Assembly (NCBI GenBank): GCA_945905745.1
Contig: CAMDQF010000010.1
Span: forward strand, 1-44,539
From: Litorilinea aerophila
GTDB lineage: Bacteria > Chloroflexota > Anaerolineae > Caldilineales > Caldilineaceae
DNA: 44,539 bases
Reading direction: 5' to 3'
The notes beneath the pieces are model-generated. The model ran no database searches. It worked only from the letters and a program-made list of their open reading frames with translations, and was not told the origin of the DNA. Both the position numbers and the translations under genes were made by a program. Shown here piece by piece: positions 39,331-44,539 of the stretch (within the stretch, counting starts at the first letter, position 1; each line of letters begins with the position of its first letter).

Positions 39331-40680
39331 TCAACCAGTGGTGTTCGGGAGGCGCTTCAGAGCCTCGGCTTCGGCATCCAGGGCTGCCTGTACCGGGTCT
39401 TTGCCCTCTTGCATCACCAGAGTCAGTTCAGCGCCCACAATGTCGTCCAATTGCAGGCCGTTGGCGTGGCTCAGGATGGCGGGGATGTTGTCGGCAATCT
39501 CCGTCCAGATGCGGTAGGCGGGCTGGCCGCCGAAGAATTCCACGCCTTCGTCGTACAGGGGATCGGCCCAGGCTGGCTTGTAGGCCGGGAAGACGCCGCT
39601 GGCCTTGAAGAGCATATTCTGCCCTTCGGCTGTGGCGCAGGACCACTGGACAAATTTCCAGGCTTCCTCGGGGAACTTGGTCTGGGCAGGGATAGCGGTG
39701 AAAGAGCCACCCCAGTTGTAGTTGGCCTCGGGGGCATGAACAACCCGCCAGTTGCCGACCGATTCCGGTTGCTCCCGGGTAAGACCGCCCTGCATCCAGG
39801 CCGCGATGACCATACCGGCAAAGGCTTTGTCGCGCAGACCGGCCTGCCATTCGGCACCCCACCAGGGAATGTTGGCGTCCAGTTCCTCTTGGCGGGCACG
39901 GGCAGCCAACTGGAAGGGGCGGGTGGCCTTCTCTTCGATCAGGATTTTGTTGCCTTCCTGATAGCCTTGGCCTTGCTGGCGATAGACCGCACCGTAGATG
40001 TCGGTCTGGGCATTGGCGAAGAGGGAGGTCTTGCCACCGCTGGCATCTTTGACCTGTTGGGCAAAGGCAAAGAAATCGTCCCAGGTGTGGTCCGGGCCGC
40101 TGAAGATGGCTTCCACATCGGCGGGTTCGCTGGGCAGACCCAGTTCATCGAAGTAGTCCTTGCGATACCAGACGCCGGCGGGGCCGATGTCCCAGGGGAA
40201 ACAGACCAGACGGCCATCCTCGGTGGAGCCTTGGGTCCATTTGTACTTCACCATATCGGCTTCGTAGATGCCGGCCTCAAAGACCTCTTTCAGGTCCAAC
40301 AGACCACCCTTGGCGGTGAAACCACCGACGCGGTCGATTTCAATCGAGGCCACGTCCGGCGCGCCGCTGCCCGCGGCAAAGGAGGTGAGCAGTTTGTCGT
40401 GGGCGTCGGCAAAGGGGGTGTTGACGAATTCGACTTTGACATCGGGGTTGCGTTCGTTCCAGCCGTCGGCCCAAATTTTGCCCACATCATCCCACCACCA
40501 GAAGACAATGGCAGCGCCTTCGGCGGCAGGGGCTGCCCCTGCCGCGGGCGCGGCACCTTCGCTGGCAGCGGGCGCAGCCGCGGGTGCGGCGGCCGGGGCA
40601 CAGGCGGCCAGGGCAATCGCCCCGCCCGTCAGGGCTGTCATGCGCAGAAAACTGCGCCGGTTCATGGTGTTTCGGTTCAT
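39331..40680 (-). CDS. Extracellular sugar-binding lipoprotein (CUT1 ABC importer)
   Basis: 449 residues from ATG 40680, with AAGGAG 6 nt upstream. The N-terminus MNRRSFLRMTALTGGAIALAACAP combines a twin-arginine motif and a lipobox, followed by an Ala/Pro linker (~30-55). The mature part is a cluster-B binding protein: AIVFWWWDDVGKIWADGWNERNPDVKVEFVNTPFADAHDKLLTSFAAGSGAPDVASIEID, VCFPWDIGPAGVWYRKDYFDELGLP and EEAWKFVQWSCATAEGQNMLFKASGVFPAYK. Its several Trp residues suit sugar stacking. It is the first gene of a four-gene operon (binding protein, two permeases, FG-GAP lipoprotein). A strong promoter lies 160 nt upstream. Confidence 0.92.
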   Translation of the reverse strand: MNRNTMNRRSFLRMTALTGGAIALAACAPAAAPAAAPAASEGAAPAAGAAPAAEGAAIVFWWWDDVGKIWADGWNERNPDVKVEFVNTPFADAHDKLLTSFAAGSGAPDVASIEIDRVGGFTAKGGLLDLKEVFEAGIYEADMVKYKWTQGSTEDGRLVCFPWDIGPAGVWYRKDYFDELGLPSEPADVEAIFSGPDHTWDDFFAFAQQVKDASGGKTSLFANAQTDIYGAVYRQQGQGYQEGNKILIEEKATRPFQLAARARQEELDANIPWWGAEWQAGLRDKAFAGMVIAAWMQGGLTREQPESVGNWRVVHAPEANYNWGGSFTAIPAQTKFPEEAWKFVQWSCATAEGQNMLFKASGVFPAYKPAWADPLYDEGVEFFGGQPAYRIWTEIADNIPAILSHANGLQLDDIVGAELTLVMQEGKDPVQAALDAEAEALKRLPNTTG

Positions 40681-40843
40681 CTTGCTCTCCTTGAGGGTAA
40701 AAAATGAATTGGCGATGCTGGTGCACCGTCGGGGAAGTAATAACCCTATACGCCTGATTGGTCAGGTAATCTCGTCTCTTTATCCTAATCGAGGGGGATT
40801 AAGAATGGGATAAGAATGAGCATCACTTATAGAGGTTGTCGCA

Positions 40844-40873
40844 ATAATAACACCTATCGGCAAAAATTGTCAA
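40844..40873 (-). promoter_or_regulatory. Strong predicted promoter of the sugar ABC operon
   Basis: On the minus strand a perfect -35 TTGACA (40873-40868) and -10 TATTAT (40849-40844) are 18 nt apart. The predicted start near 40837 leaves a leader of about 157 nt before the binding-protein gene. Confidence 0.65.
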
Positions 40874-40915
40874 AGTTGGAAGGAAACCATCGGTAATTTT
40901 TGCAGGTTTTGTAGG

Positions 40916-40944
40916 TTGACTTCCAATCGGTCGTATGTTATAGT
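40916..40944 (+). promoter_or_regulatory. Strong predicted promoter of the exporter leader
   Basis: TTGACT (40916-40921) and TATAGT (40939-40944) are separated by exactly 17 nt. The start near 40951 gives a ~320-nt leader before the first exporter gene. Confidence 0.65.
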
Positions 40945-41006
40945 GGCTCAGTCGAAAAAAGCGCTGCCAGGAGCAGCTCTGTAATCAAGAAAGGAAGCCG
41001 TTGCAG

Positions 41007-41078
41007 ATGTTGATGATGAACCGTATCTGGACCGGGGTTGCCCCCGCCGGAATCAACAAAGAGAATATGCATCGGTGA
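41007..41078 (+). CDS. 23-residue leader peptide in the exporter attenuator
   Basis: Starts ATG 41007 with AAAGGAAG 9 nt upstream and ends TGA 41078. It begins MLMMNRIW and ends INKENMHR. It lies between a strong promoter and two tandem terminators that precede the exporter genes. No run of one amino acid is present, so it is not a classic biosynthetic attenuator. In Bacillus the leader BmrB regulates the bmrCD exporter by drug-induced ribosome stalling, and this peptide holds the equivalent place. Function is inferred from layout. Confidence 0.6.
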   Translation: MLMMNRIWTGVAPAGINKENMHR

Positions 41079-41085
41079 TCCATTG

Positions 41086-41112
41086 GCGAGGAGATGGTTT
41101 AGTCTCCTTCGC
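41086..41112 (+). promoter_or_regulatory. Hairpin just downstream of the leader-peptide stop
   Basis: GCGAGGAGA (41086-41094) pairs with TCTCCTTCGC (41103-41112) with one bulged T. A ribosome halted at the end of the leader peptide would cover its left arm. A small TCGC/GCGA stem (41113-41125) follows. This is the likely sensing element of the attenuator. Confidence 0.5.
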
Positions 41113-41130
41113 TCGCTAGAAGCGACAAAG

Positions 41131-41159
41131 GTCACGGTGCATAGGCCCGTGACTTTTTT
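41131..41159 (+). terminator. First attenuator terminator
   Basis: GTCACGG (41131-41137) pairs with CCGTGAC (41147-41153), followed directly by TTTTTT (41154-41159). It is an intrinsic terminator ahead of the exporter genes. Its 3' arm plus T-run can instead pair with 41185-41196. Confidence 0.75.
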
Positions 41160-41184
41160 GATTGGCAGCGTTTGCGCTACATCC

Positions 41185-41214
41185 AAAAGTCACGGGAACT
41201 CCCGTGACTTTTTT
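41185..41214 (+). terminator. Second attenuator terminator
   Basis: AAAAGTCACGGG (41185-41196), loop AACT, and CCCGTGACTTTT with six Ts (41201-41214) form a 12-bp perfect intrinsic terminator. The 5' arm is also perfectly complementary to 41146-41157 of the first terminator. That alternative 12-bp pairing would dissolve both terminators. Confidence 0.85.
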
Positions 41215-41271
41215 GTTTGCGGTGTAGGGATCATCCGTTGCCATAGAACCGAATTAAGAAGGAGGCTGCCG

Positions 41272-43317
41272 GTGGAAGCAAAGCAAGACGTGCGGCGAGA
41301 CGGAACGAATTCAAACAGAACTGGTGAACGTGAAACAATGCAAGACGAATCATTACGAACAACCTATGACCTGCAAAATATCCTCGTCGAGAGCAAGACC
41401 AAAGCGCTCTGGAGAATGTTGTCCGGCTTTCGGGGGATTTATCTGATTGCCGTGATAGCCGCGGGGCTGGCCGCGTTGGGGCGCACAGGCTTTGCCTACT
41501 TGTTGCGCTACTTCATTGACGACGTGTTGCAGGTGACAGCCAACTATTGGCTGATCCCCTGGACTGCCCTTGGCTTTATCGGTGTGGCCCTCTTTCAGGG
41601 CTTCTTCACCTATCTGACTGGGCGGCTGGCCGCGCAGACATCCGAAGGGATCGTGCGCCGCCTGCGCAACTATTTCTACGATCATCTGCAACGCCTGACC
41701 TTTACCTATCACGACCGTATGCAGACGGGTGAACTGATCAGTCGGGCCACTTCCGATGTGGACACGATCCGCCGTCTCTATCAGGACCAGTTGATCGGCA
41801 TCGGGCGGATAACCCTGCTCTTTCTGGTCAACTTCGCGGGGATGCTTCTGCTTGATATACAGTTGGCCCTCTGGTCGGTGATCGTTATTCCGGTCATCGT
41901 GGCAGCCTCCATCTACTTCTTCGGGAAGATGGAGAAGACCTACGAGCGCTACCAGAACCAGGAGGCGAAGGTCTCCAGCCGTTTGCAGGAGAATCTGAGT
42001 GGCGTGCGGGTGGTGAAAGCCTTTGCCCGCCAGGAATTCGAGATCGAGCGCTTCGACGCGGAAAATTGGAAAAAGTATGAACGGGGCAAAGAACTCGCCA
42101 ATCTACACGCCACCTTTTGGCCCGTGACCGATGTGATCAGCGGTTTGCAGATGCTTCTGGCCTTCTATCTGGGCGCGGTCGCCACCATCAACGGCGACAT
42201 CAGCCTGGGTACCTATCTGGCCTACAGCGCTCTGGTCATCAATGTCATCTGGCCCATCCGCAACCTGGGGCGGCTGGTGGCGAATATCTCTACAGGCGTT
42301 GTTTCGCTGGAACGCTTGCAGCAGATCATTCGCCAGCAGCGGGAACCTCTGGGCCAGGGTACACACCACCTGAAGGAGCGGCTGGTGGGCGATGTGCGCT
42401 TCGACGATGTAAGCTTCCGCTACGCCGTGCCTGCCAGCGCCGAGGATCGGGAGAAGGCCATTGCTACAGCCGTTGAGACGCCGGGTACAAATGGCGCATC
42501 ATCACAGCATCCCAATATCCCATCGGTGGAGCCGGAATGGGTATTGCAGCAGATCTCCCTCCACGCCAAACCGGGCCAGGTCATCGGTCTGCTCGGCGCG
42601 ACGGGTTCGGGGAAAACCTCTCTGGTCAATCTGTTGCCTCGCTTCTATGACTATACGGAAGGCAGCATCACCATTGACGGTACGGAACTGCGGGAGATCG
42701 CCCGGGACGGGCTGCGCGCCCAGATCGGCATTGTGCAGCAGGAACCCTTCCTCTTCTCCACCACCATCCGGGGCAACATCACCTACGGCGTGGGCCGCGA
42801 TGTGAGCGATGCTGAGGTGGAGGCCGCAGCCCGAGCGGCGGCTGTACACGATGTGATTCTCAGCTTCCCCAATGGCTACGATACGTTGGTGGGCGAGCGG
42901 GGGGTCACGCTCTCGGGCGGGCAGAAGCAGCGGGTGACGATTGCCCGCACGCTTCTCAAAAACCCGTCGATTCTGATTCTGGACGACGCCACCTCCAGCG
43001 TGGATACCGAGACCGACGCGGCCATCCGGGAGGCCCTGCGCAAGCTGATGGAGAACCGCACGACTTTCATCATCGCCCACCGGGTGCAGAGTGTGATGGA
43101 GGCCGACCAGATTTTGGTGATGGATCAGGGCCGCATTGTGCAGCGGGGAACCCACGACGAACTTCTGGCCGAGACGGGCATCTACCGCCGGGTCTACGAT
43201 CTGCAAGCCCGCATTGAGGAAGATCTGGAGCGGGAGATCGCCGAAGTGGTAGATGCGACGGAGAAGCGGCTGGCGGGGGGGATGAACGGGCGGAATGGAG
43301 CGGTGGCGGTGAGGTAA
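41272..43317 (+). CDS. ABC multidrug-type exporter half-transporter with degenerate Walker B (BmrC/TM287-like)
   Basis: 681 residues from GTG 41272, chosen for a full AAGGAGG 6 nt upstream. Six helices of an ABC type-IV exporter (~45-330) include YLLRYFIDDVLQ, TSEGIVRRLRNYFYDHLQRLTFTYHDRMQTGELISRATSDVD and LQENLSGVRVVKAFARQEFE. The nucleotide-binding domain has Walker A GATGSGKTS (~442-450), Q-loop QQEPFLFS, LSGGQ (~547), Walker B ILILDDATSSVD (~572) and H-loop FIIAHRV. The catalytic Glu after Walker B is Asp572, as in the degenerate-site subunits of heterodimeric exporters. A ~40-residue Ala/Pro/Thr insertion (~383-422) lies before Walker A. A second half-transporter gene follows, so the two should form a heterodimer that pumps lipophilic compounds out. 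Confidence 0.9.
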   Translation: MEAKQDVRRDGTNSNRTGERETMQDESLRTTYDLQNILVESKTKALWRMLSGFRGIYLIAVIAAGLAALGRTGFAYLLRYFIDDVLQVTANYWLIPWTALGFIGVALFQGFFTYLTGRLAAQTSEGIVRRLRNYFYDHLQRLTFTYHDRMQTGELISRATSDVDTIRRLYQDQLIGIGRITLLFLVNFAGMLLLDIQLALWSVIVIPVIVAASIYFFGKMEKTYERYQNQEAKVSSRLQENLSGVRVVKAFARQEFEIERFDAENWKKYERGKELANLHATFWPVTDVISGLQMLLAFYLGAVATINGDISLGTYLAYSALVINVIWPIRNLGRLVANISTGVVSLERLQQIIRQQREPLGQGTHHLKERLVGDVRFDDVSFRYAVPASAEDREKAIATAVETPGTNGASSQHPNIPSVEPEWVLQQISLHAKPGQVIGLLGATGSGKTSLVNLLPRFYDYTEGSITIDGTELREIARDGLRAQIGIVQQEPFLFSTTIRGNITYGVGRDVSDAEVEAAARAAAVHDVILSFPNGYDTLVGERGVTLSGGQKQRVTIARTLLKNPSILILDDATSSVDTETDAAIREALRKLMENRTTFIIAHRVQSVMEADQILVMDQGRIVQRGTHDELLAETGIYRRVYDLQARIEEDLEREIAEVVDATEKRLAGGMNGRNGAVAVR

Positions 43318-43319
43318 AT

Positions 43320-43389
43320 GTATTGCGTATTGCGTATTCCGTAAACAGTGGCGCTCGACGCCGATAACAGAATACGCAATACGCAATAC
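43320..43389. repeat. Inverted GTATTGC heptamer repeat inside the exporter operon
   Basis: GTATTGCGTATTGCGTATTC.. (43320-43342) pairs with 43367-43389 over 23 bp with one mismatch. Three 7-nt words lie in each arm. A short GGCG/CGCC stem sits in the loop. It lies 3 nt after the first exporter gene and about 60 nt before the second. Confidence 0.7.
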
Positions 43390-43449
43390 GGAATAGGCTT
43401 TACAATCATCATTAACAACACAACAACTCTCTTTACAGGAGTTTGACGA

Positions 43450-44539
43450 ATGTCAGATCAAGAACATTTCGAAGAAGAAGAGTTCAATACCCAATTCAAC
43501 GGACGGACGATTGTGCGGATTGCCCAGCAGGGCTTGGCCCACTGGCCGATGATGCTTGGCTATCTGCTCTGTATCGCTGTTCTGGCGGTGTTGGAGTCTT
43601 ATTTCACATACTTAAGTAAATTGATTATCGACGACGGCATTCTGGCAGGGGACAGAGAAGCTCTCTGGCAGATTATCGCCCAATACACCGCGCTGATGGT
43701 GGCCCAGGCCGGGCTGGTCTTCGGCTTCATCACCTGTGCGGCCCGCTTAGGAGAACGGGTGCAGTACGACCTGCGCAAAAAGATGTTCGCCCGTTTGCAG
43801 GACCTGTCCCTCTCCTATTACAACCAGACGCCGATAGGCTGGCTGATGTCTCGCCTGACCTCGGATGTGGGGCGGGTGGGTGAACTGGTCTCCTGGGGCA
43901 TTCTGGATACGGTTTGGGGCATCCTCAACATCGCTGCGTCCATGGCCTTTATGTTCTACATCAATTTGCGTATGGGGCTGATTGTGGCGCTGATCATTCC
44001 CGCCCTGGTGATAGTGGCATCGCTCTTCCAGAAGAAAATCCTGCTGGAATACCGCCAGGTGCGCAAAATGAATTCGAAGGTGACGGGTGCCTATAACGAA
44101 GGCATCACCGGTGTGCGGGTGATCAAGAGCCTGCGCCGGGAAGAGGAGAATCTGGACGAGTTTGGCAACCTGACCAGCCAGATGTACAGGGCTGCGTTTC
44201 GGGCCGCCTGGCTCTCCGCGCTCTTCTTGCCTACGGTTCAGCTCATCAGCGCGGTGGCTGTGGGTAGCATCATTTGGTATGGCGGCTGGCAGTTCCAGAC
44301 TGGCTCGATGACCATCGGTGACATCCAAGCCTTCGTCTCCTACATCACCTTCATGCTCTTCCCTGTGCAGGAGATGGCCCGGGTCTACGCCGAACTGCAG
44401 CAGGCCATCGCCTCTGGCGAACGTATCTTCTCGCTCATTGATGCGGTGCCGGAGATTAAGGACAAGGAAGGCGCTTCCGATCCGGGCACAATCCGGGGTG
44501 ATATTGTCTTCGAGAATGTGGATTTCTCCTACGAGGACA
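43450..44539 (+). CDS. Second ABC exporter half-transporter (3' end outside window)
   Basis: About 363 codons from ATG 43450, with AGGAG 8 nt upstream; still open at the window end. An acidic N-terminus (SDQEHFEEEEFN) is followed by six helices in the exporter arrangement: LGYLLCIAVLAVLESYFTYLSKLIIDDGIL, ARLGERVQYDLRKKMFARLQDLSLSYYNQTPIGWLMSRLTSDVGRVGELVSW, and NEGITGVRVIKSLRREEENLDEF (coupling helix region). It ends at the start of the nucleotide-binding domain (GDIVFENVDFSYED), before Walker A, so the catalytic residues cannot be checked. If the first gene product carries the degenerate site, this subunit should hold the intact catalytic Glu. Confidence 0.9.
   Translation, partial: MSDQEHFEEEEFNTQFNGRTIVRIAQQGLAHWPMMLGYLLCIAVLAVLESYFTYLSKLIIDDGILAGDREALWQIIAQYTALMVAQAGLVFGFITCAARLGERVQYDLRKKMFARLQDLSLSYYNQTPIGWLMSRLTSDVGRVGELVSWGILDTVWGILNIAASMAFMFYINLRMGLIVALIIPALVIVASLFQKKILLEYRQVRKMNSKVTGAYNEGITGVRVIKSLRREEENLDEFGNLTSQMYRAAFRAAWLSALFLPTVQLISAVAVGSIIWYGGWQFQTGSMTIGDIQAFVSYITFMLFPVQEMARVYAELQQAIASGERIFSLIDAVPEIKDKEGASDPGTIRGDIVFENVDFSYED

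Follow-up and report, generated by a model that had tools for sequence, protein, structure and literature searches.

A putative six-arm, ribosome-mediated attenuator with two coupled terminators upstream of heterodimeric exporter genes in Chloroflexota

The window analysed here is a stretch of 44,539 nucleotides (nt), one contig (CAMDQF010000010.1) of the 6.4-Mb genome of Litorilinea aerophila (Chloroflexota; Anaerolineae; Caldilineaceae). It ends in two genes for an ATP-binding cassette (ABC) exporter, and the leader upstream of them, referred to as the own locus when relatives are compared, is probably a ribosome-mediated transcription attenuator in which six RNA arms pair in alternation and two intrinsic terminators are coupled. 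The first exporter gene starts with a GTG preceded by AAGAAGGAGG. The degenerate DD of its product, the occurrence of DD and DE across the subunits of seven relatives (where subunit 2 has the canonical F(V/I)MDEATSSVD, as FVMDE or FIMDE) and Pfam matches identify the pair as a heterodimeric exporter of the BmrCD and TmrAB kind. PDB matches include bacterial heterodimer chains, which we take to be those of TmrAB, and among the 25 and 24 NCBIfam models listed for the two subunits none reached its cut-off.

The leader contains a short open reading frame (ORF) with a Shine-Dalgarno (SD) site, a hairpin and two terminators (Table 1). These parts, the promoter and a 12-bp pairing between the terminators had been named in an initial annotation made from the letters alone, every coordinate of which proved right, as did the placement of an exporter pair with its own ribosome site after the leader. 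Arm 2, at the end of the leader ORF, can pair with either of two partners: arm 1, just ahead of the ORF's start codon, or arm 3, which forms the 5' side of terminator 1. By base complementarity, the arms alternate between an OFF set (1:2, 3:4 and 5:6) and an ON set (2:3 and 4:5). The initial annotation had called the attenuator apparently complete and had taken the 12-bp pairing (4:5) for its ribosome-responsive switch. The parts it listed stand, but the 2:3 antiterminator and the 1:2 helix had been overlooked; the 4:5 pairing likewise exists, but a ribosome on the leader cannot act on it directly: its two arms are well past the end of the ORF, and they can come together only once terminator 1 has failed. 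The element that responds to the ribosome is more likely the helix between the leader's 3' end and the 5' arm of terminator 1, and 4:5 would be a second step that passes the decision to terminator 2.

Table 1. Positions of the leader elements, their pairings and the exporter genes in the window
Feature	Position	Strand	Basis or remark
Promoter TTGACT-17-TATAGT	40916-40944	+	Consensus scan, 10/12 matches, TG before second hexamer
Leader ORF Shine-Dalgarno region	40990-40997	+	AAAGGAA
Arm 1, CCGUUGCA	40998-41005	+	Partner in OFF state is arm 2; one U-U mismatch here
Leader ORF, 23 codons, MLMMNRIWTGVAPAGINKENMHR then stop	41007-41078	+	Sequence reading and comparison with relatives
Arm 2, UGCAUCGGUGAUC (last codons, stop and next bases)	41068-41080	+	Pairs with arm 1 (OFF) or arm 3 (ON)
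Apical hairpin between arms 2 and 3	41085-41112	+	Within antiterminator loop; 41086-41112 in the initial annotation
Arm 3, GGUCACGGUGCA (5' arm of terminator 1)	41130-41141	+	Alignment and covariance model
Terminator 1 (3:4)	41131-41159	+	Sequence, folding, model matches
Arm 4 (3' arm of terminator 1, with U tract)	41146-41157	+	Alignment and permutation test
Spacer hairpin between arms 4 and 5	41165-41180	+	Alignment; same-genus loci show C-G to A-U exchange
Arm 5 (5' arm of terminator 2)	41185-41196	+	Pairs with arm 6 (OFF) or arm 4 (ON)
Terminator 2 (5:6)	41185-41214	+	Listed by simple consensus terminator scan
Arm 6 (3' arm of terminator 2)	41201-41212	+	
1:2 helix	40998-41005 with 41068-41075		
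2:3 antiterminator	41068-41080 with 41130-41141		12 pairs, one bulged G
4:5 pairing	41146-41157 with 41185-41196		Perfect 12 bp
ABC exporter subunit 1	41272-43317	+	Degenerate catalytic residue, LILDDATSSVD (Walker B/D-loop)
ABC exporter subunit 2	43450-44539	+	ATG start, cut by contig end

The layout has the features expected of an attenuator: a predicted short leader ORF upstream of an intrinsic terminator, a terminator (3:4) and an antiterminator (2:3) that exclude each other, an antiterminator arm in or next to the ORF, and a six-arm scheme recovered by sequence, permutation and folding. The leader folds with a z-score of -5.0, and none of 100 shuffles was equally stable. Terminator 1 was not listed by the simple consensus scan of the window, seemingly because its loop is longer than the scan allows. 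Of 77 related loci, 42 have a promoter with at least 10/12 matches ahead of the leader, compared with 1.2% in letter shuffles. Single loci show joint change: in L016 the sequences are UACACCG for arm 2 and CGGUGUA for arm 3, arms 1, 2 and 3 depart together from the usual sequence in L052 and L063, and the apical hairpin of L007 has a changed sequence with restored pairing.

Related leaders were identified by searching 60 relatives and the own genome with positions 40900-41300 using blastn, which aligned leaders in five of the six other same-genus genomes; the exporter of the remaining one (G003) is truncated by the contig end. In other genera, short matches around terminator 1 lie upstream of orthologous exporters (51-90% identity). 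A covariance model of terminators 1 and 2 alone (R1, built from 15 loci) matched 33 of 46 family genomes, the own genome included, at E<=0.01 (25 below 1e-9), as well as 82 of 396 class genomes, where many of the weak matches are probably due to chance. A broader terminator-pair model (R2), which contains neither arm 1 nor arm 2, matched 43 of 400 phylum genomes at E<=0.001; one reverse-strand row (L054) was retained in alignment A4 and hence in R2, and L008 was omitted from alignment A5. R1 was run on 77 of 80 named exporter loci and matched 30 at E<1e-6; by eye, other loci of this set have single-terminator forms of a similar leader (e.g., L119, L135, L148, L149 and L159) or none. All 20 family genomes with no match or a weak one (E>1e-6) carry exporter-like genes at E<=1e-60, orthologous or not. 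The region upstream of one exporter homologue each was read in 14 of these genomes, and eight such regions have a leader and two terminators in the same layout; seven of the eight (L195, L196, L202 and L206-L209) have other stems, mostly CCGCAG/CUGCGG and ACGUAGGC-like, and the eighth, L201, keeps the original kind. At L203 a leader-like arm 2 is accompanied by a single, distant terminator. Searches of plasmids and phages by blastn gave no match at E<=1e-3, and Rfam 15 gave no gathering-score match in the window, with three matches far below gathering (E<=5) in 40700-41400. A regulon within the own genome was considered and dropped, as only this locus scored strongly (E 5.5e-15; next 0.018). 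One weak second candidate there (L163, G000:C130 near 1802-1851) has a leader MAKQHFLS...CRSRLL with a strong SD before a protein that by eye is TPR-like; its 2:3 pairing was unsupported (z 0.03). Genomes G386, G349 and G360 have three to four model matches each, some overlapping on opposite strands, which hints at a multi-gene regulon in f28 and f60.

Maintenance of the pairings was tested on 83 loci, all of them R2 matches. These remained from 91 sources after removal of two duplicates (L169 and L193), one source without a match (L051) and five low-scoring ones (L073, L076, L160, L162 and L164); 59 had been obtained via R1 or R2, 14 first by whole-leader blastn and nine via the exporter protein, and one is the window's own. 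Six ORF-less loci (L048, L049, L079, L078, L187 and L050) were omitted from the 77-locus test, and two further loci, in which terminator 2 could not be measured, were left out of the 4:5 test. Before permutation, near-identical loci were filtered out by their shared 6-mers, which reduced 83 loci to 60, 77 to 45 and 75 to 48. For each pairing of the scheme tested, none of 20,000 permutations of partners equalled the cognate duplex energy: -15.18 for 1:2 (permuted -11.79, standard deviation 0.41), -21.77 for 2:3 (-17.30, 0.45) and -19.84 for 4:5 (-16.53, 0.36). The same held for 2:3 when all 83 loci were entered (-22.95 versus -19.56, standard deviation 0.35). Controls pairing the middle of the ORF with arm 3, arm 1 with the middle of the ORF, and arm 2 with arm 5 were null (11,427, 12,810 and 15,524 of 20,000 permutations), which argues against a pure effect of relatedness or composition. 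In the seven loci with other stems the 4:5 energy averages -17.6, compared with -10.8 and -10.2 when their arms are crossed with those of eight CACGGG-type loci, both groups having been chosen by eye; judged from these sequences, the coupling between the terminators has outlived replacement of the stems. Comparison of orthologous upstream regions, one of the checks proposed with the initial annotation, came out in favour of the attenuator.

The leader ORF is kept as well. An ATG-initiated ORF with an SD (energy <= -4) that ends before terminator 1 is present in 74 of 83 loci, compared with 10.6% in shuffles, and at an SD energy <= -7 in 62 of 83, compared with 1.8%. ATG was preferred in choosing the ORF, with L036 remaining a GTG; the ORFs of L067 and L072 are doubtful and were nevertheless counted. 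The distance from the leader stop to terminator 1 is 3-58 nt (up to 75 nt was allowed), and a length of 23 codons is shared by the six same-genus leaders, own included, and by 14 of the 15 in genus g8. The TGCGCC core of arm 2 is found in each of the three frames (22, 7 and 4 times), for example as S-A-P in the f28 leaders and C-A-C in L099-L101 and L107; this core is therefore constrained as RNA. Eight f28 leaders show a mild coding-like trend, with 90 of 243 single changes synonymous compared with 69 of 286 and 71 of 300 in the shifted frames; such conservation was also sought in genera g1 and g8 and was not found there. With so little coding-like conservation, the leader probably senses the position of the ribosome, and the peptide seems to count for less. 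Three leaders (L099, L068 and L158) have three or four Ile in a row near the start of the peptide, which may be due to chance or may serve to slow translation.

To model the effect of translation, nascent RNA up to the apex of terminator 1 was folded with and without a 30-nt ribosome footprint, as had also been proposed. In the window, 2:3 was predicted to form with 14-16 pairs when the P site is at codons 1-16 and to be lost (at most 0.9 pairs) at codons 17-24. Of nine loci profiled, seven show a mostly broad pattern like the window's; in the other two, L066 and L100, the folds favour 2:3 at codons 1-4 or 1-5 and 1:2 from there to codon 18, and 2:3 is again allowed in a narrow stretch at codons 19-21. 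Averaged over 77 loci, the predicted number of 2:3 pairs is 10.5 without a ribosome, 13.2 with one at the start, 10.9 in the middle and 2.4 at the end; the start exceeds the end by at least five pairs in 62 loci and falls below it in three. The whole leader folded without a ribosome has the OFF set, 1:2, 3:4 and 5:6 (7, 9 and 12 pairs), in its minimum free energy structure.

These results suggest the following sequence of events. When the leader is fully translated, the ribosome would mask arm 2, terminator 1 would form and the exporter would be OFF, with terminator 2 as a back-up. A ribosome held early in the leader would leave arm 2 free to seize arm 3 once the latter is transcribed; in some relatives an early hold would mainly mean the first four or five codons, where the ribosome also covers arm 1. 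Arm 4, freed by 2:3, would then take arm 5, both terminators would be lost and the exporter pair would be transcribed. In relatives where 1:2 outcompetes 2:3, a leader without translation would likewise stay OFF. The inducing signal would most likely be a drug or stress that stalls ribosomes early, and the pump may be protective. More tentatively, the sensed event may be a ribosome halted on the start codon or immediately beyond it, in place of arrest at a peptide motif, in what could be a phylum-wide "domino" class of Chloroflexota attenuators; because arm 1 lies directly against the start codon, the chain would be flipped only by ribosomes held early, and one decision would be relayed via two terminators in series.

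Several observations weigh against the attenuator or limit its scope. At equilibrium the ON state (2:3 with 4:5), computed with enforced pairs, has -98.9 kcal/mol and is 11.3 less stable than OFF (-110.2 kcal/mol), a gap of 7.3 with a ribosome at codon 3; read-through would therefore have to rest on co-transcriptional kinetic trapping, which is also the basis of read-through in classical attenuators. The loss of 2:3 with a ribosome at the leader end is partly geometric, arm 2 then being masked. The window's 1:2 helix is weak owing to its mismatch, and ribosome-free nascent RNA is already predicted to form 2:3; since 1:2 outcompetes 2:3 in the folds of only 20 of 77 loci, an OFF state without translation is not general. 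Among the permutation tests, 3:6, which is outside the model, also beat permutation (-16.06 versus -14.75, 1/20,000), if more weakly than 4:5, and the permuted loci are not fully independent, relatedness being removed only in part by the 6-mer filter. In the seven diverged loci the cognate 4:5 mean compares with -15.0 for non-cognate pairs within the group, and cognate 2:3 (-21.8) is hardly above non-cognate (-20.8), making this a weak test there. Covariation within Caldilineaceae is weak, paired cells being reached by 67 of 500 and 211 of 500 shuffles, because arms 2 and 3 are nearly invariant. The ORF is missing from 6 of 83 loci, and five exporter homologues (L197-L200 and L204) lack the element where one homologue per genome was read. 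Single-codon changes (synonymous/non-synonymous) show no bias towards synonymous ones, being 24/62 in frame and 19/78 and 23/73 out of frame in the window's genus (g1), and 143/333 compared with 171/460 and 139/407 in g8.

Other explanations were considered. One is peptide-specific arrest, in which ribosomes are stalled by, for instance, a macrolide or ketolide at a motif of the leader peptide and the same RNA logic responds to a nascent-chain sensor, erm leaders being the precedent for drug-induced arrest. Residues 2-10 of 19 of 77 leaders, 17 of these 19 in the window's family, contain Arg/Lys-X-Arg/Lys (as in MARIR, MDRIRNR, IIRLRAG and MMRNRAG), which has been named as a ketolide stalling motif (PMC8298421). 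The motif is nevertheless lineage-limited: 58 of 77 leaders lack it, the window's genus has NRIW and not R-X-R, the peptide differs between families, and its substitutions are not clearly coding-like, which makes this reading rather unlikely. An amino-acid attenuator that reads charged tRNA would share the RNA logic of the trp and his type, and runs of at least three identical residues occur in 6 of 77 leaders, three of them runs of Ile; with no run in the other 71 or in the window's leader, a commonest residue that varies (Ala in 24, Arg in 10) and downstream genes for exporters, acetyltransferases, ABC-F-like and RIO-domain proteins rather than biosynthesis, it is very improbable.

Two further explanations dispense with the ribosome. 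Were the element a riboswitch or the target of an RNA-binding protein, with an incidental ORF, the poorly conserved peptide, the six ORF-less loci and the formation of both states from folding alone would be accounted for; the excess of SD-preceded ORFs over shuffles, their stops shortly before terminator 1, the position of arm 1 beside the start codon and of arm 2 at the stop, and the lack of an Rfam match make such a switch improbable. That the twin terminators are a duplicated plain terminator without switching, and 4:5 complementarity a by-product, would fit the GTCACGG common to both terminators here and the result for 3:6, but 4:5 is better kept than 3:6 in the permutation set and in the seven diverged loci (-12 to -21 versus -5 to -16), and terminators lying between a promoter and its gene suggest regulation; we regard duplication as most unlikely. 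The ribosome-mediated attenuator is the best of these explanations.

Six-arm attenuation is known from hisL, the his operon attenuator of enterobacteria, in which a leader peptide precedes arms A-F, AB, CD and EF terminate, and a ribosome on A leads to BC, DE and read-through (PMC10989985). The Chloroflexota element has the same logic and differs in having terminators at both 3:4 and 5:6. In hisL, which has one terminator, EF carries the U run and seven His codons are the sensor (PMC10989985), whereas here both 3:4 and 5:6 end in U tracts, the ORF ends inside arm 2, and the window's leader has no run of one regulating amino acid's codons. In target and kind of regulation the element resembles bmrB-bmrCD of Bacillus subtilis, where a two-gene ABC exporter induced by 50S drugs is under ribosome-mediated transcription attenuation (PMC4191407). 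Sequence comparison gives good support to the suggestion that such an attenuator occurs outside Firmicutes, ahead of a BmrCD-like heterodimeric exporter. The accompanying idea of a far-diverged BmrB found no support when the layouts, though not the bmrB sequence itself, were compared: the published description places the bmrB terminator inside the ORF, its antiterminator and anti-antiterminator being predictions (PMC4191407), whereas both terminators here follow the stop of the 23-codon ORF. In the lmrC leader of Streptomyces lincolnensis, an upstream ORF (uORF) and two premature terminators, both predicted, precede an ABC-F gene (PMC8546547); in that account only terminator 1 is validated, uORF2 overlaps it, and no coupling between terminators is described. 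The rimP-leader of several Gammaproteobacteria has tandem terminators, the upstream one with a potential antiterminator (PMC2965389), in another phylum and before other genes; no leader ORF is described there, and the main text does not mention Chloroflexota. Among the papers listed from open-licence literature, none names a leader-peptide attenuator class in Chloroflexota or this element itself.

Judged by sequence comparison, the element is found ahead of the orthologous heterodimeric exporters of Caldilineaceae and other Anaerolineae; other loci in the phylum have it before GNAT, ABC-F-like and RIO-domain genes. Pfam scans of eight downstream proteins gave GNAT acetyltransferases, RIO1-domain proteins and twin ATPases, the last of which we take to be ABC-F-like; downstream genes were assigned by a nearest-long-ORF rule, which is crude, so that some assignments may be wrong. 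The kinds of genes suggest a tie to defence against translation inhibitors and point to acetyltransferases, pumps and bacterial RIO-domain proteins that probably respond when translation is inhibited. The element would represent a large leader-peptide attenuator class in a little-studied phylum, and its two-terminator relay lends itself to the study of how a single ribosome-dependent choice of fold is relayed during transcription; if the sensed event is indeed a ribosome parked at the start, exporters, GNAT acetyltransferases, ABC-F factors and RIO-domain kinases could form a general translation-inhibition regulon. At L185 and L190, ORFs begin 53 and 17 nt past the terminator match, behind 2:3-type leaders of -29.6 and -33.5 kcal/mol; the product matches PF01163 (RIO1-domain) at L190 and is similar by eye at L185. 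L192 has a third RIO1 protein (Pfam) behind a poor leader.

Around the own locus, a divergent promoter (TTGACA-18-TATTAT, minus strand, 40873-40844, 11/12 matches) points towards a 449-residue minus-strand ORF (39331-40680), and an inverted repeat of the GTATTGCGTATTGCGTATTCCGTA kind lies between the exporter genes at 43319-43400. Repeat-like insertions between terminator 2 and the exporter differ between the close relatives L005 and L006.

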